Below, in pieces: positions 28,698 to 38,304 of a stretch of 64,000 nt of DNA. Origin of the DNA: Phycisphaerales bacterium (GTDB taxonomy: Bacteria; Planctomycetota; Phycisphaerae; Phycisphaerales; UBA1924); contig RECY01000024.1 of assembly GCA_007693785.1 (NCBI GenBank), positions 1 to 64,000 on the forward strand. Direction: 5' to 3'. The position numbers and the translations under genes are program-made. The notes under the pieces were generated by a model. The model was given only the letters and a program-made list of their open reading frames with translations, did not search any database and was not told the DNA's origin. Numbering within the stretch: the first letter of the stretch is position 1; each line of letters begins with the position of its first letter.

Positions 28698-28771
28698 GGG
28701 CGTATAGCTCAGTTGGCTAGAGCGCTGCTGTCACATAGCAGAGGTCACTGGTTCGAGTCCAGTTACGCCCA
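28698..28771 (+). tRNA. tRNA-Val (anticodon CAC), 3' end is an attachment site
   Basis: A full cloverleaf: acceptor GGGCGTA/TACGCCC, D arm GCTC-AGTTGGCTA-GAGC, anticodon stem CTGCT/AGCAG around loop GTCACAT (anticodon CAC), T arm ACTGG-TTCGAGT-CCAGT, discriminator A. CCA is not encoded. Base 32 of the loop is G, where a pyrimidine is usual. The last 21 bases (28751-28771) recur at 38224-38244, and an integrase gene runs into the tRNA from the other strand, so this is the attB of the element at 28772-38244. Its natural terminator now lies 9.5 kb away. Confidence 0.93.
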
Positions 28772-30083
28772 TTAACTTATTTTCCACAGAATCACACACG
28801 ATACCACAGCCAACCATAAGCCCTTGATTTTCATGGCTTTCCGGTTGGCTTCGTTGTTCCTTGGGTTTGTGTGGGCGCGCCTGTGTTGCCGGATTTGTTG
28901 CCATAGTTGTTGCCGGATTTGTTGCCGCCTTACCGATCCCCGCCGCAAGGTCAAAGTGTGCGTCCCGGGTTTGCAGGTAGTGCTGAGCCGCGATCATCGG
29001 GCTATGCCCGAGCCAGCCGGCGACGACGTGGGCCGGGAAGTGCTCCACCCAATCCGTCGCGCACGACGCCCGCAGGTTGTGGAACAGCCGGGGCCAGGGC
29101 TTCACACCCGCCCGGGCGATGATCCGTTCAAACTGAGTGCGAAGGTTCACCCGCCCATCCCGCAGGCGGGGCACCACGGCTTCCGCCCCCGGCTCGGCCC
29201 GGTCGAACAAGGCTTGCAGGATCGGGCGCAGTTCGGGGGCAATCGGGACCACCCGAACCGCGTGCCCTTCATGGCTGGCTGTTTTGGGGCTCCGAACGGT
29301 CATCCGGCCCTTGTCCCAAACAATGTCACCCCACCGCAGGCCGACGACTTCGGACGGGCAGCGGAGCCCGGCGAACCGCGACAGGGCGACGATCGCGCGC
29401 CATTCGTCATCGGGGCACGCCGCCAGAATCGACCGGATGGTTTCGACTGGGACGTAGAACGCGCGATCGGGGTTCGATTGCGAACCGGCCCGCAGGTCGG
29501 CAAACGGGCTGGAGTCCATCAAGCCCCAGCGTACCGCCCGCTTGAAGATCGCCCGCGCAACGTGAACACGCTTTGCCACTGTTGCCGGTGCCAGTTGCTT
29601 TGTGGTTTCGTTCCCGTCTTCGTCGGTCACGTTCACCGGCTCGGCGATCGACTTCCGCCAGCTATCCGCGTATGCCGGGGTAATTGTCACCAGCGGGGTA
29701 TCGTCGCCCAGGTGCGCCCGCAGACTGTCGGTTGTTTGCTTGTACGCCGCCATCGTTGATGCCTTCACCGACGCCGCCGCGCAGAACCGATCCAGCAGCA
29801 TCCCCACCGTTACTACCGCCGTGTCCCGTGGTTGGGCCAGCTCCAGCGCGACTACCCGGGCATGGATTCGATCATCGATCCGTTCCAGCCACCGCACAGC
29901 GTCGTAGTGCGGGGCCGTGTCGTGTTGCTTGGCTTCCAGCAGGTGCTCAAGCGCCGACAGGGCCAGCAGCGCGTTCCGTTCAGAACACTTGCCCAGCCGC
30001 AGGCTTTTCTGTTTCCCCGCCGTATCACGGAACATGATCCGCTTCAACTCGCCCCGCTCGCCTTCGCGTCCGATGCTCGCCAT
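28731..30083 (-). CDS. int: Tyrosine recombinase (integrase), truncated by integration
   Basis: Site-specific recombinase that should move the element. 450 residues as integrated. N-terminal arm-binding/SAM-like core domain (residues about 85-190: VGMLLDRFCAAASVKASTM), catalytic domain with Arg241 (RFAGLRCPSEV), His335 and Arg338 (HNLRASC), His360 (WLGHS) and Tyr369 (QHYLQT). A Thr/Asn-Pro-Ala linker (ATNPATTMATNPATQ) follows. The last codons (MGVTGLEPVTSAM) are read from the tRNA, and the stop lies in the anticodon loop. The same frame continues from the att core at the right end (38223-38006), so the excised circle should encode 516 residues. Confidence 0.92.
   Translation of the reverse strand: MASIGREGERGELKRIMFRDTAGKQKSLRLGKCSERNALLALSALEHLLEAKQHDTAPHYDAVRWLERIDDRIHARVVALELAQPRDTAVVTVGMLLDRFCAAASVKASTMAAYKQTTDSLRAHLGDDTPLVTITPAYADSWRKSIAEPVNVTDEDGNETTKQLAPATVAKRVHVARAIFKRAVRWGLMDSSPFADLRAGSQSNPDRAFYVPVETIRSILAACPDDEWRAIVALSRFAGLRCPSEVVGLRWGDIVWDKGRMTVRSPKTASHEGHAVRVVPIAPELRPILQALFDRAEPGAEAVVPRLRDGRVNLRTQFERIIARAGVKPWPRLFHNLRASCATDWVEHFPAHVVAGWLGHSPMIAAQHYLQTRDAHFDLAAGIGKAATNPATTMATNPATQARPHKPKEQRSQPESHENQGLMVGCGIVCDSVENKLMGVTGLEPVTSAM
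28751..28771 (+). repeat. Attachment site, left (within tRNA-Val)
   Basis: GTTCGAGTCCAGTTACGCCC plus A, the T-arm and acceptor end of the tRNA. Identical over 21 bases to 38224-38244. It keeps the tRNA gene intact after insertion. Confidence 0.92.
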
Positions 30084-30086
30084 GCG

Positions 30087-30467
30087 TCACAATCCCTTCG
30101 TCAATGCCGCCAACAACACGCCCCAAACGAACATCCACGCGACAGACAACACCAGCACTCTTGATCCCGAACGATCGCGGTTCGCCAGCCGGATTGTCCC
30201 AGCTACCAACCCGACCACGGGGACAAGGCACGCGAATACCAGCAATGTGGTATCCGGGTTTGTCGCGGGCGTCGATTCATCGTCGCGCCTGAAACCGCCG
30301 CCCTCGGTGGGAAAGTAAATGTGCCCGCTTTCGGAGTGAATCGCCGTAATGCTCACGCCCCGACGCGAGGCAAATTCCGCAACTTCTTCGACGCTGCCGA
30401 GTTTCACCGAAAGTTGCACAGACGCGCCGTTCTGGTCATCAACTCCGTGAACAATAAATGCTCTCAC
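30087..30467 (-). CDS. Small protein with two C-terminal membrane segments
   Basis: 126 residues, not recognised. The soluble N-terminal part (residues 1-65) has an alternating beta/alpha pattern (FIVHGVDDQNGASVQLSVKL, EEVAEFASRRGVSITAI, HIYFPTEGGGF). Two hydrophobic helices follow at about 72-92 (TTLLVFACLVPVVGLVAGTI) and 103-122 (VLVLSVAWMFVWGVLLAALT). It ends three bases before the integrase start. Probably an inner-membrane protein with its N-domain in the cytoplasm; function unknown. Confidence 0.7.
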   Translation of the reverse strand: MRAFIVHGVDDQNGASVQLSVKLGSVEEVAEFASRRGVSITAIHSESGHIYFPTEGGGFRRDDESTPATNPDTTLLVFACLVPVVGLVAGTIRLANRDRSGSRVLVLSVAWMFVWGVLLAALTKGL

Positions 30468-30471
30468 GGGC

Positions 30472-30585
30472 TCACCGTCCCTTCCGTGGTCTCGCCTTGG
30501 GCTCGATTGTAATTCGAAGCCCTAGGTAGTCCGCCAGCCGTTCGATCGTGTCCACCGTCATTCCGTGTAACAGTTGGCTATGGGA
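30472..30585 (-). pseudogene. Remnant of an XRE-family regulator
   Basis: Reading on in frame after the TAA of the next gene gives SHSQLLHGMTVDTIERLADY followed by LGLRITIEPKARPRKGR and a stop. TIERLADYLGLRI is the usual last part of short XRE helix-turn-helix proteins (second half of the HTH and final helix). The N-terminal helices are missing. An ATG at 30561 would give only 29 residues. I read it as a decayed regulator, possibly the element's former repressor. Confidence 0.5.
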
Positions 30586-31383
30586 TTATGGTTCAGGTAC
30601 TGCAAATTGAGTCCGTCCGGCTTCATCGAATAAACTCAGATACGGCCGGCCGTCGATCAGGACCAACTCGCCCCGTGTATGTCCGCGTGCATCTATCACC
30701 GCAAGCCCAGGGCGGTTTTTTGTACCACGTAGAATGACCATCCCCAACTCTGGATCGCCGACGCCCAGCATCACGTTTCCGCCTTCACGCAGCAGCATCA
30801 TGGCTTGTTGCCCGTCGTCATGCGTCAGAGCGATTCCGCCGGCAAACACGGTTGAAGATGATCGAGCAACCCGATCCCGAACCATCAACCCCCTTGTCGG
30901 TCGGCGATTATCGAGCGTTAGCTCTGGTGCTGTCTCAGTTCCCTGAAGTCGCAAGCCCGATCCATCATTACTCACGGTTGCAGCCAATACCGGACCGCCC
31001 TCCGTAGGCGTCATCCGCAGTTCAACTGAGTCTTCCCCTGCCAAGACTTGAACCGCATCTGCGCCGTTCGCGTGTCGCAGCCGAATACGCGGCGCAGTGT
31101 TCGCACCGACAAGTTCGACTCGTAACTTTCCTTCCTCGTCATATAGCGCAAGCCGTGGTCCAGCAGTGCCCATTTCCAGTATGCCACGCTCTCGGTTGTT
31201 CCCGTCGAACAGCACCACGCGATTCGCTCGTACCACACGCTCTCGCTGATTTGTCGCTCCCATCGTTCCGGCGACGATGAGTAATGCCAGCAGTCCAACA
31301 ACGCTTGCGCGGAGGCGGCCGTAGCTTCGTCGCATCGCTAAGAGCTCCCGTTCTACGCGTTCCAGACGATCACACGATTCCAC
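30586..31383 (-). CDS. Membrane-anchored beta-repeat protein
   Basis: 265 residues from GTG 31383 with AGGAGG seven bases upstream. A charged N-terminus, one membrane segment at about residues 24-43 (LRASVVGLLALLIVAGTMGA), then repeated beta units of the form VxLFDxNxRERGILEM / LALYDEEGKLRVELVG / GLAVIDARGHTRGELVLIDG / YLSLFDEAGRTQFAV. Such repeats occur in many uncharacterised bacterial proteins and probably fold as a beta-helix or stacked sheet outside the membrane. Base composition is lower in GC than most of the element. Cargo gene of unknown function. Confidence 0.75.
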   Translation of the reverse strand: MESCDRLERVERELLAMRRSYGRLRASVVGLLALLIVAGTMGATNQRERVVRANRVVLFDGNNRERGILEMGTAGPRLALYDEEGKLRVELVGANTAPRIRLRHANGADAVQVLAGEDSVELRMTPTEGGPVLAATVSNDGSGLRLQGTETAPELTLDNRRPTRGLMVRDRVARSSSTVFAGGIALTHDDGQQAMMLLREGGNVMLGVGDPELGMVILRGTKNRPGLAVIDARGHTRGELVLIDGRPYLSLFDEAGRTQFAVPEP

Positions 31384-31507
31384 AGCAATTCCTCCTCTTC
31401 GCCGCGATGAACAACACGGCTTGTTTGTCGTTCCAGCCTAGCCGTTTTGTGGGTCTTCCCGCTCGGTTCACCGAATAGTTATTCCATTATTCAGATTCTT
31501 TGCATTG

Positions 31508-31570
31508 CTTCGCCGGCCCCGATCAGCCACGCCGGCGAGCCCGTGTGTGTTGCCATCCCGAGCCCGTTCG
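31508..31570 (-). repeat. Partial duplicate of the TubC-like gene's 3' part
   Basis: About 63 bases resemble 31713-31775 inside the gene at 31523-32023 (shared stretches include GATCAGCCA-GCCGGCGAGCC). Read on the minus strand in the matching frame it encodes THTGSPAWLIGAGEA, compared with THPGSPAWLIATGEA in the gene. It lies in another frame relative to the gene's current 3' end. Confidence 0.6.
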
Positions 31571-32023
31571 CGACGCGCGACGGTCGGGGTGTTCCGGGTC
31601 ACTTCGGAAAAGGGGTACACAGGGCACGTCGCCCCACGCATCCGCGCCCTCGGGCGGTTCGGGCAAGGGGGGAAGGGGGTCGGGTGTCGCCCGGTCGGCG
31701 TCGATCGCCTCGCCGGTTGCGATCAGCCATGCCGGCGAGCCGGGGTGCGTTGGAAGTCCGAGTTCTTCCGCGACGCCCAGCCGTTCGGCCAACACGTAGC
31801 GCCCTTCCTCGCCGGCGACGGGCGCGGTCAGCATGAACAGCACGTCCAGCTTGTGTTGTCGCAGTTCGGCGACTTCGCCGGGCAACAGCTCGCCGCGCCA
31901 CGCGACGCGATCCGAGCCGACCGCGGCAAGCTCGACCCCACGCGACCCGAGCCCGCGGAGCAGTTCGGCGACCACCGGCGGAAGCTCGCCGATCCCTCTG
32001 AAGTTGGGACGGTGCGGGATCAC
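31523..32023 (-). CDS. Small protein with TubC-docking-like N-terminus
   Basis: 166 residues; ATG overlaps the primase stop (ATGA at 32020-32023), so the two are coupled. Residues 12-55 (ELPPVVAELLRGLGSRGVEL, then RVAWRGELLPGEVAELRQHK) resemble the TubC N-terminal docking fold, which is often found attached or next to primases of mobile elements. A GSPAWLIATGEA segment follows, then a Pro/Glu-rich stretch. The last 20 or so residues are read out of frame through a duplicate of its own 3' region, so the present C-terminus is probably not original. Function unknown; an accessory to the primase is inferred from coupling. Confidence 0.7.
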   Translation of the reverse strand: MIPHRPNFRGIGELPPVVAELLRGLGSRGVELAAVGSDRVAWRGELLPGEVAELRQHKLDVLFMLTAPVAGEEGRYVLAERLGVAEELGLPTHPGSPAWLIATGEAIDADRATPDPLPPLPEPPEGADAWGDVPCVPLFRSDPEHPDRRASRTGSGWQHTRARRRG

Positions 32024-34575
32024 AGCAGCCCACTCCAGCCGGCGGGCAGCGCGCCATTCTCCGCGGTCGCTTCACTTGCGACAGCGACGAAACCCCCCGC
32101 CGCGATACCGCCAGTAGGGGTTTCGTCGCATGGCGCAGCGTCGCCGCGCTGAGACACCAGCCGGACGCGCTTCGCCGGACGCCCGCCCTTCGCGCCGTCG
32201 CCATCCTGAACCCACGCCGCGACGCTCGACGCCACCAGTTCGCCCAGGGCCTTTGCGGCCCGTTCAGGGTCGCCGCGGAACGCGCTCGGGCCGCGGGTCA
32301 GGTCGCGGACCGTCGCCGTGCCGCCTTTCGATTCGATCCACTCCACCAGCGCCGCACGCTCGCGGTCTTCGGGCGAGGCGGTCAGCCCTTCCCGCGCATG
32401 CCGCTCGGCGTCCGCCGCGAAGCGTCCCCACGCCAGCGCCGCCCGCATCGTCGCCCCGTCGATCGGGCCGGCGTCGTCGGGCGTGCCACGCACCGCCCAG
32501 GTCGCCAGCGCGTGCAGCACGCCCGCGATCCGCAGCACCGCGCCGGGAAACTTGCTCGCCCATGCTCGGCGTTCGTAGTGCTCCCCGCCCGGCCGCATCG
32601 CCGGTTCAACTTCGCGACGGAAGGCGACGAACAGCGTGCCCGCCTCGGGGTCGAGCCGTACCGTCGCCGGCGTGTCGCGGGGCGCGTGCTCCAGCAGCCC
32701 GCGGATCAACCGATCCCACGCGCGGGCCAGCCGCTCGGGCACGGGTGGAGTTTCGATCTTGCGGAAGCCCAAATTGTCGGGCGGCCTCGACACCAGGAAC
32801 CGGGCGAGGAAGCCGTTGGTGCGTGCGTCCGCGTTCGCCCAAAGTTCTTCCACCGCTTCGGGTTGAGCGACGACCGCCAGCGCCGCCGCGGGGCGCGGAA
32901 CGTGGACGCTCTCGCGCCCCATCCGATCCTCGTGGATCGCGTCCCCCGCGTGCGCCTTGAGCAGTGTTCCCCAGGCGGGAGACTCGCCGTAGCGCCGGCC
33001 CGTGGTCGTGCGCAACACGTCCGCCTCGGGATCAGCAACCAACGCCCGCCCGCCGTGCCGCGCGAGGTGCCGAACCAGGGCCTCGGGCGTCGCGTCGGAA
33101 ATGACCAGGCGCGGGGCTTGGGGCACGTCGGGCAGCGTTTCCAGCTCCGCCGCCGCCGCGTCCGCGTCGTGTTTTGCGGCTTTGTATTGGTCGGGTTTCG
33201 CAGAAACGGCCTTTCGCCGCAGCGCGTCGTAGCGATCCTCAGCGAACGCCCGATCCCGCACAGCGTCGGCAATGAACGGCGCGAGGCGTTCGGCTTCTTC
33301 CCGCTCCCAAGCATTGACCGGCGCGGTCAACGCCCGGAACACCGCCGACTTCCGCGACCCGCTCGGCGCGAGCACCAGCGTCCACAGCGGGGCGGGCTCG
33401 ACCCATCCCCCGCCGTCGATTTCAACCACGCCCGCGCAGCACGCCGACGCGATCGACAGCGCAAGCATCGCCGCCATTTCGGGCGGGGTTTGCGTTGCCT
33501 CGCTCAGTGCCGCGAGAAACTCTCGTAGCTCGCTCAGGCGCTCGGGGAACACTTCGGCCAGGTCGAGCGTCGGGGCGAGCGCCGGAGCCGGCACAGTCAA
33601 TCCAGCCGAATCCTCGGGCTCACTCGCGTCAGCCAGTGCTTCAATCTCCGCGCGGATCGCGTCCGCGTCGCCGGCGCGATGCTCCACCAGGTCAGCCATG
33701 TCACCGCCTTCGGGCATCCCTGCCCAGAGTTCAACCAGCCGAACCACCCGCACCGACACCGCGCCCGCCGCGCTGGCGAGCCGCGCCACGTCCTCCGCGT
33801 ATTTCTCGCCGGCGTCGTCGTGGTCGGGGAGGATCACCACGTCTCGCCCGGCCATCGGGGACCAGTCCGCTTTGTTCGCAGACTTCGCCCCGTGGGGGCT
33901 TGTCGTCGCGACCAGCCCAGCCGCTCGCGCCGCGTCCGCCGCCTTCTCCCCTTCGCACACCCAGACCCGTGCGCCCGCCGGCGTCGCCAGCAACTCGGGT
34001 AAGCCGTACAGCCGGCGCGGCTCCGGCATCCCGCCGATACACCACCCCGACCCGTCCGGCAGCCGCGACACGGGGCGAATGGTCTTCCCGGTCGGCGTGT
34101 TCCAGCGTGCAACAACGCCCACCGGCTCGCCGCCGGCGTTGTGGTAGGTCCAACTCTCCGAGCGCGGGCCGAGCCGAGCCTCGATATACGCCATCGCTTC
34201 GCGGGCGGTCGGAAAGGTGCGGGGCTTGGGTTCGGGCCGGCGGCTTGCGACGAAACCCGCCGTCGCGATACCGCTAGCAGGGGTTTCGTCGCCGTCGCAG
34301 CGTCGCCGGGGCTTCGGCGCGTGCCCGTTGCGTCGCGTCGGGTCGTCCGCGAACAGGTCGGACCACTTCAAGCCGATCGCGCGCAGCACGTCCGACGTGT
34401 CGCATCCGCGCTGGCATTTCACCAACACCTTCCCGTTGTCTCCGGTGCCGATCGACAGGGAAGGGTTCCGGTCATCGTGGGCGGGGCACCGGCAGGACCA
34501 GCCTTCGCCGGATCGCTTGGGCGTGTGTCCGTGCTCGCGCAGGGCGGAGAGAATGCGGTTTACGGGGTCGCTCAT
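32020..34575 (-). CDS. CHC2-Toprim primase with DUF3987 domain
   Basis: Likely replication protein of the element, 851 residues. CHC2-type zinc finger in residues 24-65 (GWSCRCPAHDDRNPS, VKCQRGCDT), Toprim-like domain about 195-285 (GARVWVCEGEKAADAARAAG, DVVILPDHDDAGEKYAEDV), then a DUF3987 region from about 330 with a P-loop-like LAPSGSRKSAVF. The C-terminal part has winged-helix-like segments (LVEWIESKGGTATVRDL). Two palindromic repeats are inserted in frame: residues about 95-110 and 816-831 read GDETPASGIATAGFVA and CDETPTGGIAAGGFVA. Coupled by ATGA overlaps to the genes on both sides. Confidence 0.88.
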   Translation of the reverse strand: MSDPVNRILSALREHGHTPKRSGEGWSCRCPAHDDRNPSLSIGTGDNGKVLVKCQRGCDTSDVLRAIGLKWSDLFADDPTRRNGHAPKPRRRCDGDETPASGIATAGFVASRRPEPKPRTFPTAREAMAYIEARLGPRSESWTYHNAGGEPVGVVARWNTPTGKTIRPVSRLPDGSGWCIGGMPEPRRLYGLPELLATPAGARVWVCEGEKAADAARAAGLVATTSPHGAKSANKADWSPMAGRDVVILPDHDDAGEKYAEDVARLASAAGAVSVRVVRLVELWAGMPEGGDMADLVEHRAGDADAIRAEIEALADASEPEDSAGLTVPAPALAPTLDLAEVFPERLSELREFLAALSEATQTPPEMAAMLALSIASACCAGVVEIDGGGWVEPAPLWTLVLAPSGSRKSAVFRALTAPVNAWEREEAERLAPFIADAVRDRAFAEDRYDALRRKAVSAKPDQYKAAKHDADAAAAELETLPDVPQAPRLVISDATPEALVRHLARHGGRALVADPEADVLRTTTGRRYGESPAWGTLLKAHAGDAIHEDRMGRESVHVPRPAAALAVVAQPEAVEELWANADARTNGFLARFLVSRPPDNLGFRKIETPPVPERLARAWDRLIRGLLEHAPRDTPATVRLDPEAGTLFVAFRREVEPAMRPGGEHYERRAWASKFPGAVLRIAGVLHALATWAVRGTPDDAGPIDGATMRAALAWGRFAADAERHAREGLTASPEDRERAALVEWIESKGGTATVRDLTRGPSAFRGDPERAAKALGELVASSVAAWVQDGDGAKGGRPAKRVRLVSQRGDAAPCDETPTGGIAAGGFVAVASEATAENGALPAGWSGLL
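32084..32129. repeat. 46-bp palindromic repeat, copy A (inside primase 3' end)
   Basis: Arms GCGACGAAACCCC (32084-32096) and GGGGTTTCGTCGC (32117-32129) around a 20-base centre containing CCGCGATACCGCCAG. A conserved flank (GCAGCGTCGCC) follows. In the minus-strand frame it encodes DETPTGGIAAGGFV. Confidence 0.85.
34247..34292. repeat. 46-bp palindromic repeat, copy B (inside primase 5' part)
   Basis: Arms GCGACGAAACCC (34247-34258) and GGGGTTTCGTCGC (34280-34292), centre with TCGCGATACCGCTAG, followed by the flank CGTCGCAGCGTCGCC. It has the same length and the same reading phase as copy A and encodes DETPASGIATAGFV. Confidence 0.85.
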
Positions 34576-34781
34576 GCTGCGACCCCCTTGCTCGCTTCGA
34601 TCAGCCGCCGCAGGTCGGCCACGTCGAACAGACGCCGCGCCGCGATCTTCACGCTCGGCAGTTCGCCGCGTACCCGCAGGTTGTCGATGGTGCCGGGCGA
34701 CACGCCCAGCAGGCGGGCAGCTTCCCGCCGATCCACCAGCAGCGGGGCGGTTGTTGTCGGGTGGCTCGGGTTAGCTGTCAC
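34572..34781 (-). CDS. Excisionase-like helix-turn-helix protein 1
   Basis: 69 residues, GTG start. A single winged HTH of the MerR/excisionase (helix-turn-helix 17) type: LVDRREAARLLGVSPGTIDN followed by LRVRGELPSVKIAARRLFDV and ADLRRLIEASK. Such small proteins in integrated elements act as recombination directionality factors or as regulators. It overlaps the primase start by four bases and the second HTH gene by eleven. Confidence 0.85.
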   Translation of the reverse strand: MTANPSHPTTTAPLLVDRREAARLLGVSPGTIDNLRVRGELPSVKIAARRLFDVADLRRLIEASKGVAA

Positions 34782-34965
34782 GCGACACCCCGCTTTCCTG
34801 CCGCTCGGCCAGAGCTTTCAGCACCGCCGCCAGGTCGAACATGCGCATCCGACCCGCGCGGATGCAAGGCAACCGCCCCGCGTCCGCTTCTCGCTTCAAC
34901 CACGCGACAGGTAGCCCCGTGCGCTCCGCCAGACAGTGCAACGTCAGAAGTTTTGCGTCGTTCAT
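34771..34965 (-). CDS. Excisionase-like helix-turn-helix protein 2
   Basis: 64 residues from ATG 34965 (the frame is open further upstream, but that part is unlike the family). LTLHCLAERTGLPVAWLKRE, then ADAGRLPCIRAGRMRMFDLA and VLKALAERQ: a helix-turn-helix with the wing typical of excisionase/AlpA-like proteins. It is the partner of the HTH gene it overlaps; one of the two is a plausible excisionase and the other a transcription switch, but sequence alone does not say which. Confidence 0.8.
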   Translation of the reverse strand: MNDAKLLTLHCLAERTGLPVAWLKREADAGRLPCIRAGRMRMFDLAAVLKALAERQESGVSRDS

Positions 34966-35053
34966 GCGTCGAGCATTGACGCGAGAAAACTCGAATGAAA
35001 CGCGACAGGATCGCGCCTCACGCACCCTCACGGATTTTCATGGATTTTCACGC

Positions 35054-35806
35054 TTAGCGCGGAACGCCGGACGGCCACCAGCGCCGTGCATCGGGAACGT
35101 AGTAGCACACCACGCCATCGATAACCTGCGTGCGCACGCGCTTGGTCTTCCGTTTCGGCGATGCCGCCTGACGCAGCTTATCTGCCATTCCCTTATTGAA
35201 ATACGTCGCGGGCCGATACTCGCCGTTGTCCCCGTCACCGTCGCCCCCACCCGCCGCCGCCGGCACCGATATGTCCGCAAGAAGCGCCAAATGCTCGGCG
35301 AGCGCGATCGCCTTCGCAAGCGATTCGGCGGTCAAGTGCTCACTACAGATGGTGAAGGGCGACGGGTCCAACCGGTGCGCAATGGCGGTGCGCTGCAAGT
35401 AAGGCACGAAGGAAATAGATCCAATGACCGCAAGAATCTGAAAACAAGCGATATCTTTTTTGAATCCCCGGAGTTCGTCATCGTTGGGATCGGCTTCAAG
35501 CGCACGATCCACCAACGGTTCGATATGCATAAGCTCAATCAGGTGCTTGAGTGCGATCCCGAGGCACCCATAGTCTTCCGCCGCCTCGCGGAGCCGATCG
35601 CCGTTCAGTGCCATCGGTGGTTCGGGGTAGCGATCCCGAGCCCCCAAGATCCGATCGATTACACGTTGCTGAAGCGCATTGCGCAGTTCGATCGCATCGC
35701 GCACTTCAAACGCTTTGGATTGTGTCCTGGAAACGGCGGGGCTTGCTTCGGGTGCCTTCGCCGGCGCGTTCTTCTTTGCCTTCGTCCGCGCGGCTTTCTT
35801 CGCCAT
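35054..35806 (-). CDS. Unknown element protein with basic N-terminus
   Basis: About 250 residues from the ATG at 35806 (an upstream in-frame ATG at 35908 is possible). The N-terminus is a Lys/Ala/Pro tail (MAKKAARTKAKKNAPAKAPE), followed by a mostly helical domain (VRDAIELRNALQQRVIDRIL, REAAEDYGCLGIALKHLIEL, FKKDIACFQILAVIGSISFV). A Gly/Asp linker leads to a C-terminal KRVRTQVIDGVVCYYVPDAR, which could be a small DNA-binding or wing-like unit. Not recognised. It lies upstream of the HTH pair. Confidence 0.7.
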   Translation of the reverse strand: MAKKAARTKAKKNAPAKAPEASPAVSRTQSKAFEVRDAIELRNALQQRVIDRILGARDRYPEPPMALNGDRLREAAEDYGCLGIALKHLIELMHIEPLVDRALEADPNDDELRGFKKDIACFQILAVIGSISFVPYLQRTAIAHRLDPSPFTICSEHLTAESLAKAIALAEHLALLADISVPAAAGGGDGDGDNGEYRPATYFNKGMADKLRQAASPKRKTKRVRTQVIDGVVCYYVPDARRWWPSGVPR

Positions 35807-35952
35807 TGATTCACTCGCTTTCTCGGGCCGGTCGGGCGGGGCTTTGGGACGAGTGAACCCAAAGCCCCAGCCCGATCCGTTCACCGGGAGATCAAACCCG
35901 GTGCCCACTGCCCAAGGATAGCAGGCACTAACCAGCGGGGCGGCTCACCGAT

Positions 35953-35998
35953 GCGACGAAACCCCCCGCCGCGATACCGCCAGCCGGGGTTTCGTCGC
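35953..35998. repeat. 46-bp palindromic repeat, copy C (intergenic)
   Basis: Arms GCGACGAAACCCC (35953-35965) and GGGGTTTCGTCGC (35986-35998), centre with CCGCGATACCGCCAG, flank CGTCGCAGCGTCGCC after it. It sits between the zinc-ribbon gene and the unknown protein gene and is the most regular of the three copies. Confidence 0.85.
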
Positions 35999-36018
35999 CG
36001 TCGCAGCGTCGCCACCCC

Positions 36019-36702
36019 TCACCGATGCGCGATCCGGGCGCACCCCCGGCACGCCACGCCCGACGCCAGGGCGTACAGGTGAACCCGCTTCGCCCCGCAC
36101 CGCGGGCAGGTCAGGTAGAGCCGCGTTCCATAGCGGGCGTCCGGCTCGGCCACCACCACCACCCGCACCCCGGGGGCGTCGGGATCGTCCGCCGGGCGGG
36201 CGTCGATCGCTTCCACCCGCGCCGGGTCCAGCCCCTCGGTGAGCGCCTGCCGCCGGATCGCGTTCGCGTCGATGCGAGCCGGGAAGTCCGACACCCGCCA
36301 GCGTGCCCGCGGGCGGCCCGTCAGCTTCGCCGGCAGCTCACCGCCCCAGGCGTACCGCAGCACCCGGGCCGAAGCCGCCACGTCCGCCCCGGTCATCGCG
36401 AGCGACGTTTCGCACCAGGCGAGCAGCTCGCGGGCGTTTTGGTTCGGGGCCTTCTCCGGGCGCTCGGCCAGCGCCGCAAGGAACCGGGCGACCAGGGCCT
36501 CGCGGTCGGCGGCCGGGGCGTTGTCCAGCCACCCGCGCCGGATCGCCGTGCCCATCAACCGGCAGTCACCGCGGAAGTGCCGGGGGTCATCGAACAGGAT
36601 GCTAAACTTGGGGGGCGTGTCGCCGGCGTCGGTGCCGCCCGCTCCGCGAGCCGCCGGCGTCGATTCGGGAAACCCCTTCGCGGGGGTTGGGGGCGTCGTC
36701 AT
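36019..36702 (-). CDS. Unknown protein with C-terminal zinc ribbon
   Basis: 227 residues; ATG overlaps the polymerase stop (ATGA at 36699-36702). A disordered Pro/Gly N-terminus, a helical middle (FSILFDDPRHFRGDCRLMGT, LVARFLAALAERPEKAPNQN) and a C-terminal zinc ribbon YLTCPRCGAKRVHLYALASG followed by CRGCARIAHR. The helical part may be an adaptor; the ribbon is of the kind found in phage and transposon proteins. Coupling to the polymerase suggests they act together, but no function is known to me. Confidence 0.75.
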   Translation of the reverse strand: MTTPPTPAKGFPESTPAARGAGGTDAGDTPPKFSILFDDPRHFRGDCRLMGTAIRRGWLDNAPAADREALVARFLAALAERPEKAPNQNARELLAWCETSLAMTGADVAASARVLRYAWGGELPAKLTGRPRARWRVSDFPARIDANAIRRQALTEGLDPARVEAIDARPADDPDAPGVRVVVVAEPDARYGTRLYLTCPRCGAKRVHLYALASGVACRGCARIAHR

Positions 36703-38009
36703 GGGCGATCCCTTCCAGGGCGGGCGCTTCGGCCCGTCCCGTCCACGTCGGGCAAGTCCAGGTCCGGGGGCGCGCCGAAGGGGATGCGGCGCGGGGCCGT
36801 GCCGCGGGCGTCGTGCATCGCGCCCAGGTACACCACGTCCGCGCCGTACCGCAGATTGATCCGGTCCACCGCTTGCATGAGCGACGCCCGCGCCCGCTCG
36901 CCGTCGAACAGCGAGAGTTGGGCGTCGGCCCGCTCCAGCCCTTCCAGCCGTACGCCGACTTGCAGCACCCGCCCGCCCGGGGCGTCGGCCCACAGCGCCA
37001 GCAGCGCCCGGTGCAACGCCGCCGTGTCGTCCGTTGGGCGTACCGGCGTCCAGTCCCCCCACCCGCCGCCGTCAGCAGGGCGGATCGACAGCGAGAGCCG
37101 CGACGCCCGGTAGCCGAGCGAGCGCATCCGTTGGGCCGCCTTCGCCAGCAGGCGCAGGCTCACCGCCCGCGCCGCCTCGGGCGATCGGTGCGCCGGCGGC
37201 AGGACGTGTTGATGCCCGACCGTCCGCCGGTGGGTCCGCGGGCCGGGGTGTTGATCGCCGCGGAGCCAGTGCCACCAGTAGACGCCGAGCACGCTCCCCC
37301 ACGCCGCGCGGAGTTGTGCGGGCGTCCGGGCGTACAGGTCTTCCACGCTGGCGATCCCCGCCGCCCGTAGGCGTCGGTTGATCCCCTTGGAGATACCCGG
37401 TAGGTCCGTCAGGCGGAGCGCGAGCATCGGGCCGGGAAGCTCCGAGCGCTTCCAGACCGTCAGCCCGTCGGGCTTGCGGGAGCCGGCCGCGACTTTCGCC
37501 AGCAGCCGGTTCGGCGCGATCCCGACGGAGCAGGTGACGCACCCCACGCGCTCGCGAATCGCCCGCTTGATCCCCATCGCCAGCCGCTCGGCCACGTCGG
37601 GCGGGCGCTCATTCGCCATGAGTTCGCACCAGCATTCATCCACCGACTCGACCACCGACACCGGGAGCACCGTGTCGATCGCCGCGAGCAATTCGTGATG
37701 CACCCGGATGTACCGATCGGGGCGAGCTTGAACGATCGCGATGCCCGGGCAGAGCGTGCGGGCGTCCGCCACCCGGCACCCGGTCTTGACGCCGAAGGCT
37801 CGGGCTTCGTAGGACGTAGCGATACAACAGCCGGACGGGGCGGGAACGGGCGTCACGCCGACCGGGCGGCCGCGAAGCTCGGGGTGGTCCATTTGCTCCA
37901 CCGACGCAAAAAAGGCGTCCATATCCAGGAACAGGACCAGCAGTTCGGCGGGGGCGACCATGCCGACAATATACCGAACAAATACGGGATGGGAAGGGGT
38001 CGGGCTCAT
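36699..38009 (-). CDS. Y-family DNA polymerase (DinB/UmuC-like)
   Basis: Translesion polymerase, 436 residues from ATG 38009; an internal ATG at 37961 would give 420. Palm and fingers: VLFLDMDAFFASVEQ (Asp29, Asp31), SYEARAFGVKTG, and SVDECW with the catalytic Asp124-Glu125. Thumb HhH: ALRLTDLPGISKGINRRLRA; little finger domain about 270-400 (RSPEAARAVSLRLLAKAAQR). QLSLFDGE near the end is a clamp-binding-like motif. All catalytic acidic residues are intact. Carried by the element, with an ATGA overlap to the severed integrase tail upstream and to the zinc-ribbon gene downstream. Confidence 0.93.
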   Translation of the reverse strand: MSPTPSHPVFVRYIVGMVAPAELLVLFLDMDAFFASVEQMDHPELRGRPVGVTPVPAPSGCCIATSYEARAFGVKTGCRVADARTLCPGIAIVQARPDRYIRVHHELLAAIDTVLPVSVVESVDECWCELMANERPPDVAERLAMGIKRAIRERVGCVTCSVGIAPNRLLAKVAAGSRKPDGLTVWKRSELPGPMLALRLTDLPGISKGINRRLRAAGIASVEDLYARTPAQLRAAWGSVLGVYWWHWLRGDQHPGPRTHRRTVGHQHVLPPAHRSPEAARAVSLRLLAKAAQRMRSLGYRASRLSLSIRPADGGGWGDWTPVRPTDDTAALHRALLALWADAPGGRVLQVGVRLEGLERADAQLSLFDGERARASLMQAVDRINLRYGADVVYLGAMHDARGTAPRRIPFGAPPDLDLPDVDGTGRSARPGRDRP

Positions 38010-38223
38010 TCCCCGGGCTTCCCACTAGCCGACGCCGCGACCATCGCAACGATGCCAGCCCGGACGGCTTCGGGCAGGTCGGCCCACGCCGCGACCACGC
38101 CCGCGAGCCGGGGATCGGTTGGCTTCGCCACCCCCTCCGAATCACCGAACCGTGCGCCGGTGTTGCCGGATTTGTTGCCGTCCCACCCGGACACTCCCGA
38201 TTTCCTCGGAGAAAACGGGGGTA
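38006..38223 (-). pseudogene. int: Severed C-terminal coding part of the integrase
   Basis: 72 codons, open from the att core to TGA 38006. Starting from the 21-base att core it is in the same frame as the integrase end at 28751: GVTGLE then LPPFSPRKSGVSGWDGN and VVAAWADLPEAVRAGIVAMV. In the circle it would complete the integrase (residues 445-516) and overlap the polymerase start. As integrated it is preceded by a chance chromosomal extension up to ATG 38278, which I do not count as a separate gene. AWxxLPEAVRAGIxAMV resembles tails I associate with other planctomycete integrases (from memory). Confidence 0.75.
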
Positions 38224-38244
38224 GTTCGAGTCCAGTTACGCCCA
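38224..38244 (+). repeat. Attachment site, right
   Basis: Exact 21-base copy of the tRNA-Val 3' end at 28751-28771. It has no other tRNA parts upstream and marks the right boundary of the element. Confidence 0.92.
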
Positions 38245-38273
38245 CTTCTTGAATCGAGTTTTCGGGCGGTTTC

Positions 38274-38304
38274 CCCATGATTCCTATGGAGTCATGGGTT
38301 TTTC
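38274..38304 (+). terminator. Stranded terminator of tRNA-Val
   Basis: CCCATGATTCC (38274-38284) pairs with GGAGTCATGGG (38288-38298) with one T-G wobble and a TAT loop, followed by TTTTTC. It lies 29 bases after the right att site, where the terminator of the uninterrupted tRNA gene should be. Confidence 0.8.

Follow-up and report, generated by a model that had tools for sequence, protein, structure and literature searches.

A planctomycete integrative element whose attP probably lies in the coding sequence of its own integrase gene, toward the 3' end

The window (the whole 64,000-nt stretch of Phycisphaerales DNA that was analyzed) contained an integrative element that very probably holds its attP within its own lambda-type integrase gene, toward the 3' end of the coding sequence, and switches between two integrase isoforms on integration. 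On the minus strand, the integrase gene translated the att core as GVTGLE before terminating inside the tRNA as PVTSAM*. An ORF at the right end of the element read the second copy of the core in the same frame, as GVTGLE followed by LPPFSPRK...DPRLAGVVAAWADLPEAVRAGIVAMVAASASGKPGE*. When the ends were joined in silico as a circle, the integrase, the core, and a 72-aa tail formed a single uninterrupted ORF of 516 aa, such that integration would swap the last 72 residues for six. Judged from these reading frames, the att core is within the integrase gene, and integration is predicted to cut off the 72-residue tail. The excised circle and its 516-aa joint, the only form in which the tail is joined in frame to the integrase, were reconstructed by computation and not observed, since no intact uninterrupted integrase-core-tail gene was found at any locus examined; if all copies are integrated, this absence is expected. 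The reading draws on att repeats, the in-frame joint, recurrence in other elements, paired repeats, and selection on a predicted hairpin, all of them features of the sequence.

The integration target was a tRNA-Val(CAC) gene identified by ARAGORN (Rfam tRNA, 66.2 bits). Its last 21 nt (GTTCGAGTCCAGTTACGCCCA) had an exact second copy downstream, and these exact repeats at both ends fixed the limits of a 9,473-bp element (28772–38244). In shuffled versions of the window (n = 20), the best match to the tRNA-Val was 9–13 nt, and the opposite strand gave 10 nt. Elsewhere in the genome, matches to the tRNA-Val were other tRNA-like sequences only (72–83% similar). Beyond the right repeat, at a distance of 30 bp, was a hairpin of 11 pairs followed by TTTTT (38274–38298); its stem was the longest among nine terminator-like matches, against a chance expectation of 7.4. 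The original prediction was thereby borne out: tRNA-Val harbours an integrative element, its integrase ORF extends into the tRNA, and a tRNA-type terminator is stranded past the right end. A relative lacking the element had also been envisaged, and such an unoccupied site was found in a different genus rather than in the same species: at locus L135 (G053:C12), rpsB adjoined tRNA-Val(CAC) as in the window, and the next 1.5 kb were free of integrase. In relatives, an integrase of the same family was present at 6/29 tRNA-Val(CAC) loci examined. Altogether, the tRNA with its 3' fragment, the adjoining integrase, and the free site in another genus identify the element as a tRNA-integrating genomic island.

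All likely genes of the element were on the minus strand (Table 1), as had been read from the sequence earlier. Family matches were found for the gene set then named: a primase, two HTH_17 proteins, and a Y-family polymerase. The CHC2 and Toprim matches of the primase were weak beside its strong DUF3987 match. Searches of Pfam, PHROGs, NCBIfam, and PADLOC found neither capsid, terminase, or relaxase genes nor any known defence system in the element, in agreement with the claim that capsid, terminase, and transfer genes are absent. A phage satellite or mobilisable island had been proposed on this basis, a status that is compatible with an isoform switch but seems doubtful. The element is small, and it has an integrase and a primase with no structural or transfer genes found; however, packaging, capsid-remodelling (capsid-size), and relaxase families were also not found among its proteins, and the cargo of related elements was varied and unrelated. 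Of the earlier proposal, the planctomycete family stood, and satellite or mobilisable status is a conjecture. The primase, the HTH_17 proteins, and the 166-aa protein recurred in many of the smaller related elements; larger ones carried other genes. The gene set is not what most marks the element out; its main feature, the in-frame reading of the integrase across attP, had been overlooked.

Several related elements carried cargo of note. A 19-kb element in tRNA-Val-TAC (G092; L109:10448-16274) contained Cas9 (1101 aa), Cas1, and a CRISPR array of ~15 repeats with a 66-bp period: a type II CRISPR-Cas system carried by an integrative element. A 21-kb element in tRNA-Glu (G023; L101:9128-17761) encoded a type I restriction-modification system, and another (G066; L087:11355-13064) encoded a DUF262-like protein that PADLOC matched to HEC-05, which makes its gene a candidate for defence.

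Table 1. Features of the integrative element, its target tRNA, and its attachment sites (window positions).
Feature	Position	Strand	Evidence
tRNA-Val(CAC), integration target; 3' end comes from the element	28698..28771	+	ARAGORN, Rfam
Integrase, integrated form, 450 aa, ends GVTGLE-PVTSAM* (last six residues tRNA-derived)	28731..30083	-	ORF, PF00589 E=2.6e-13
Left att core, 21 nt, within tRNA and integrase ORF alike	28751..28771	.	exact repeat
Integrase-side arm-like repeats TGTTGCCGGATTTGTTGCC, 12-bp period, within integrase coding sequence	28884..28927	.	sequence repeat
126-aa protein, possibly membrane; no confident family	30087..30467	-	ORF
265-aa protein, function unassigned; no family (Pfam, PHROGs, NCBIfam, PADLOC)	30586..31383	-	ORF
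166-aa protein adjoining primase; relatives in 10 other elements	31523..32023	-	ORF, comparison
CHC2-Toprim-DUF3987 primase/helicase-like protein, 851 aa	32020..34575	-	PF13148 E=1.1e-93; phrog_2373 E=2.7e-55
HTH_17 protein, candidate excisionase	34572..34781	-	PF12728 E=3.8e-10
Second HTH_17-like protein	34771..35031	-	PF12728 E=8.4e-4
284-aa protein without assigned function; relatives in some other elements	35054..35908	-	ORF, comparison
227-aa protein without assigned function; relatives in some other elements	36019..36702	-	ORF region, comparison
Y-family DNA polymerase, 436 aa	36699..38009	-	PF00817 E=4.2e-38
Integrase tail, 72 codons and stop counted from core end	38006..38223	-	in silico joint, family-wide comparison
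Block of 29 conserved codons, DPRLAGVVAAWADLPEAVRAGIVAMVAAS, with predicted helical hairpin	38030..38116	-	dN/dS, structure model
Tail-side arm-like repeat, 20-mer identical to integrase-side arm	38161..38180	.	sequence repeat
Right att core, 21 nt	38224..38244	.	exact repeat
Terminator-like hairpin, presumably that of the tRNA, left beyond the element	38274..38304	+	11-pair stem, T run

The 450-aa resident form of the integrase kept the N-terminal domain and residues R241, K267, R338, and Y369. The best Foldseek matches of the predicted integrase structure were to full-length lambda Int (1z1b, E=1.6e-10), with modest TM-scores of 0.37–0.45; as modeled, the protein is folded in the lambda manner, from an N-terminal arm-binding, a core-binding, and a catalytic domain. 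The tail had no noteworthy match in Pfam, PHROGs, NCBIfam, or PDB sequences.

Integrases with attP in their own gene are described as very few among integrative elements (PMC4701971); the Islander authors mention integrases that reach across attP, with Mx8 and SSV as examples (PMC4383910). In the archaeal suicidal integrases (SSV1, pTN3, pT26-2), att lies in the integrase gene, which is partitioned on integration, and self-disrupting integrases have been described as exclusive to archaea (PMC8371274). By analogy with this type, the tailed form would be the sole active integrase, integration would inactivate the gene, and excision would need a full-length copy elsewhere. The layout in the window does resemble the SSV type; in the latter, however, int(N) and int(C) are separated, with the catalytic domain on the int(C) side, whereas here the N-terminal and catalytic domains stay together and only a non-catalytic tail is lost. 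The SSV-type split of the catalytic from the N-terminal domain is thus not found in this element. Because the resident form keeps all catalytic residues, a change in activity is more probable than its loss. Moreover, reviews describe the integrated-form integrase of Mx8 as a less active product (PMC4701971) or one of changed specificity (PMC6070905), and not as a dead enzyme. On this evidence we regard inactivation on integration as unlikely.

The element resembled the Myxococcus xanthus phage Mx8 in that attP is inside the coding sequence of a tyrosine integrase whose C-terminus is exchanged on integration; PMC4701971 puts the exchange at the C-terminal 112 residues for 13. The Mx8 record had the same layout, with 113 residues after STGLEPV, a peptide that resembles antisense tRNA. 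An integrase ORF in frame through attP is accordingly a feature that the two appear to have in common, and homology of the tail to Mx8 was not found, with Mx8 Int scoring 1.2 bits against the planctomycete tail profile (no significant match). Additionally, Mx8 is a complete phage, unlike the element here, and the flanks of its core had no shared repeat above chance, unlike those of the planctomycete elements. The planctomycete tail, unlike that of Mx8, was a conserved module common to several integrase subfamilies and tRNA targets. In the integration-dependent immunity of mycobacteriophage BPs, the altered gene is the repressor, not the integrase. PMC4557955 places the BPs attP within a phage gene whose product is changed by integration. 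In streptococcal ICEs in rumA, attR is within the integrase gene, and the C-termini of the excised and integrated forms differ (PMC4701971); these ICEs encode a serine integrase, have a protein-coding target, and are conjugative, unlike the element here. The arrangement is a widespread variant of a rare known kind, and no description of the planctomycete family was found in the open-access literature.

Among 150 relatives, the tail was found in 79 by single-sequence search and in 110 with a profile (E<=0.05), and the integrase was found in 81. On ~30 contigs, the integrase and tail were on one strand and in the predicted order, the tail being at the distal end; these related elements were about 6–32 kb. 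Targets recognized by ARAGORN were tRNA-Val (CAC, GAC, TAC), Lys, Phe, Tyr, Ile, Glu, and Leu. A further target group was defined by the core peptide WSRGESNP, and no tRNA was found there. In a phylum-wide sample, 41/294 genomes contained the tail, often behind antisense-tRNA peptides. The phage and plasmid collections contained no close relatives; viral contigs contained eight relatives of the integrase, none of them with the tail, and a scan of viral contigs for the tail found none.

In all 25 pairs for which the core could be identified and the end of the integrase read, integrase and tail kept a common frame across the core. Eight of eight further elements from the phylum-wide sample, other integrase subfamilies included, were also in frame, giving a total of 33/33 testable elements. 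Two or three frames were open through nearly all cores, so the agreement was not forced. The chance of agreement was ~8e-10 over the 23 distinct core/frame groups in the 25 (open frames only, if independent) and, by our own estimate, roughly 1e-4 to 1e-5 when about eleven target/frame classes are counted, the related elements not being fully independent in either case. Left out of the 25 were elements with a cut contig (G068), a broken integrase (G033), a degenerate integrase (G010), or no clean core (G075 and G106). Two pairs (G066 and G073) were examined by hand and were in frame, the core of G266 was located by the shared peptide VGQAGLE, and a tentative ninth phylum-wide element (G387) is outside the 8/8. 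One element (G006) was in frame across the core with a later frameshift within the tail. The integrase-core-tail junction in G075 was contiguous, with a frameshifted tail, and is probably a tandem array; G056b, an integrase beside the tail of another element in a different frame, was treated as a tandem junction, and a candidate for an unbroken integrase-tail ORF at L196 was a long ORF without an integrase.

The right-end ORF could instead be a separate small gene (coding, e.g., for a directionality factor) that starts internally and matches the integrase frame only incidentally. In the integrated state the tail is physically apart from the integrase, and the ORF there begins upstream in host DNA (38278). 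The frame agreement in all testable elements, despite the other frames open to them, makes such a gene very improbable, as do remnants of an integrase C-terminus that were fused in frame to the tail in three elements (G010, G032, and G060), at the right end of each.

The integrase side and the tail side of the core shared a repeat of 9–23 nt in 22/25 elements, at positions of about -120 to -163 and +35 to +52 relative to the core (p<=0.03 each vs. 60 shuffles; shuffle mean 7–8 nt). In the window, this repeat (CGGCAACAAATCCGGCAACA on the coding strand) occurred in the integrase ~150 nt before the core and in the tail ~43 nt after it. Repeat sequences varied between subfamilies: GGCAACAAATCC, GGCGCAAAATGC, GCGCAGCGCCAG, and GTGACGCAAAAAGCG. 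No clear repeat was seen in G083a (a match at the right position, p=0.10) or in G060 (a match elsewhere), and it was unreadable in G032, where the end of the integrase is duplicated. With one arm-like repeat in the integrase and one in the tail, the integrase coding sequence appears to contain attP in its entirety. As in lambda, the repeats flank the core at arm-like distances, and they are candidate arm sites that Int may bind; the difference from lambda is that they are within the integrase gene itself and are translated.

Beyond the repeat, the tail's conserved terminal block of 29 codons is under purifying selection: codon-position differences were 0.29/0.185/0.444, and dN was below dS in 123/125 pairs (median ratio 0.42). 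Outside this block, the tail was weakly constrained as a protein; dN/dS over the whole tail was mostly 0.6–1. An AlphaFold model of 79 aa predicted a disordered first part and helices at 45–53 and 59–74, with pLDDT of 83–86 in the best blocks and a mean of 63, i.e., modest confidence overall. That the tail is non-coding, its conservation that of attP arm DNA only and its ORF a by-product, is barely credible, given that the selected codons are outside the repeat and that the frame was open in all tails (66 to 111 codons), although the near-core part is predicted to be disordered and its motif GNKSGN/GAKSGA, which coincides with the arm-like repeat common to the integrase side, is largely explained by DNA.

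The isoform switch may be pictured as follows. In the excised circle, the gene would encode a 516-aa integrase extended by a disordered linker, the translation of arm-site DNA, and a helical hairpin. Integration at tRNA-Val would cut the gene at the core, leaving the tail 9.5 kb off and without the integrase start codon, and the resident gene would give a 450-aa protein ending in the tRNA-encoded PVTSAM. We infer that both isoforms are made, the tailed one from the circle and the tailless one from the chromosome. It is fairly likely that the two differ functionally, in activity or direction. The tailed form, as a product of the circle only, would favour integration; the tailless form would have altered or reduced activity, with excision left to helpers such as the HTH_17 pair, a division that would follow the pattern of phage Mx8. 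In the window, the ATG of the polymerase overlapped the stop codon of the tail as ATGA (38009–38006), so the integrase may be translationally coupled to the right-end genes, beginning with the Y-family polymerase, in the circle only. This overlap was not general in the family.

A more speculative extension, which we hold as a possibility somewhat short of even, is that across the phylum the shared tail acts as a built-in state sensor, with the topology of the gene, and not a separate directionality factor alone, setting the direction, and the terminal hairpin serving as a portable directionality module. If so, a tailed isoform made only from the circle would drive integration, and the tailless one would come only from the chromosome. 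The many planctomycete elements with a detachable conserved tail and translated arm-like sites amount to dozens of natural variants, which make the sensing by a recombinase of its own integrated state a testable question. For genome engineering, the two isoforms could suggest integrases that carry their own directionality. For annotation, the layout explains short orphan ORFs that open with antisense-tRNA peptides in planctomycete genomes, and it provides a means to delimit islands in them.

Further tails and integrases were seen outside the elements described above. The genome of the window contained a second integrase, 35% identical (G000:C42:4869-5990), and a weak tail-like match (G000:C35:31996-32157), perhaps another element or a remnant. 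Two tails 18 kb apart (L221-L222; G109:C1, 4201585 and 4219814) had no integrase recognized in 40 kb. In G017:C1 (L182 and L026), an integrase of another subfamily ended in an antisense-tRNA peptide that it had in common with a nearby tail of this kind, so the tail is apparently common to different integrase subfamilies. One Phycisphaerae MAG, OFTM285, had tails of at least two kinds on five contigs (L186, L188, L191, L192, and L193), which points to several such elements in one host.
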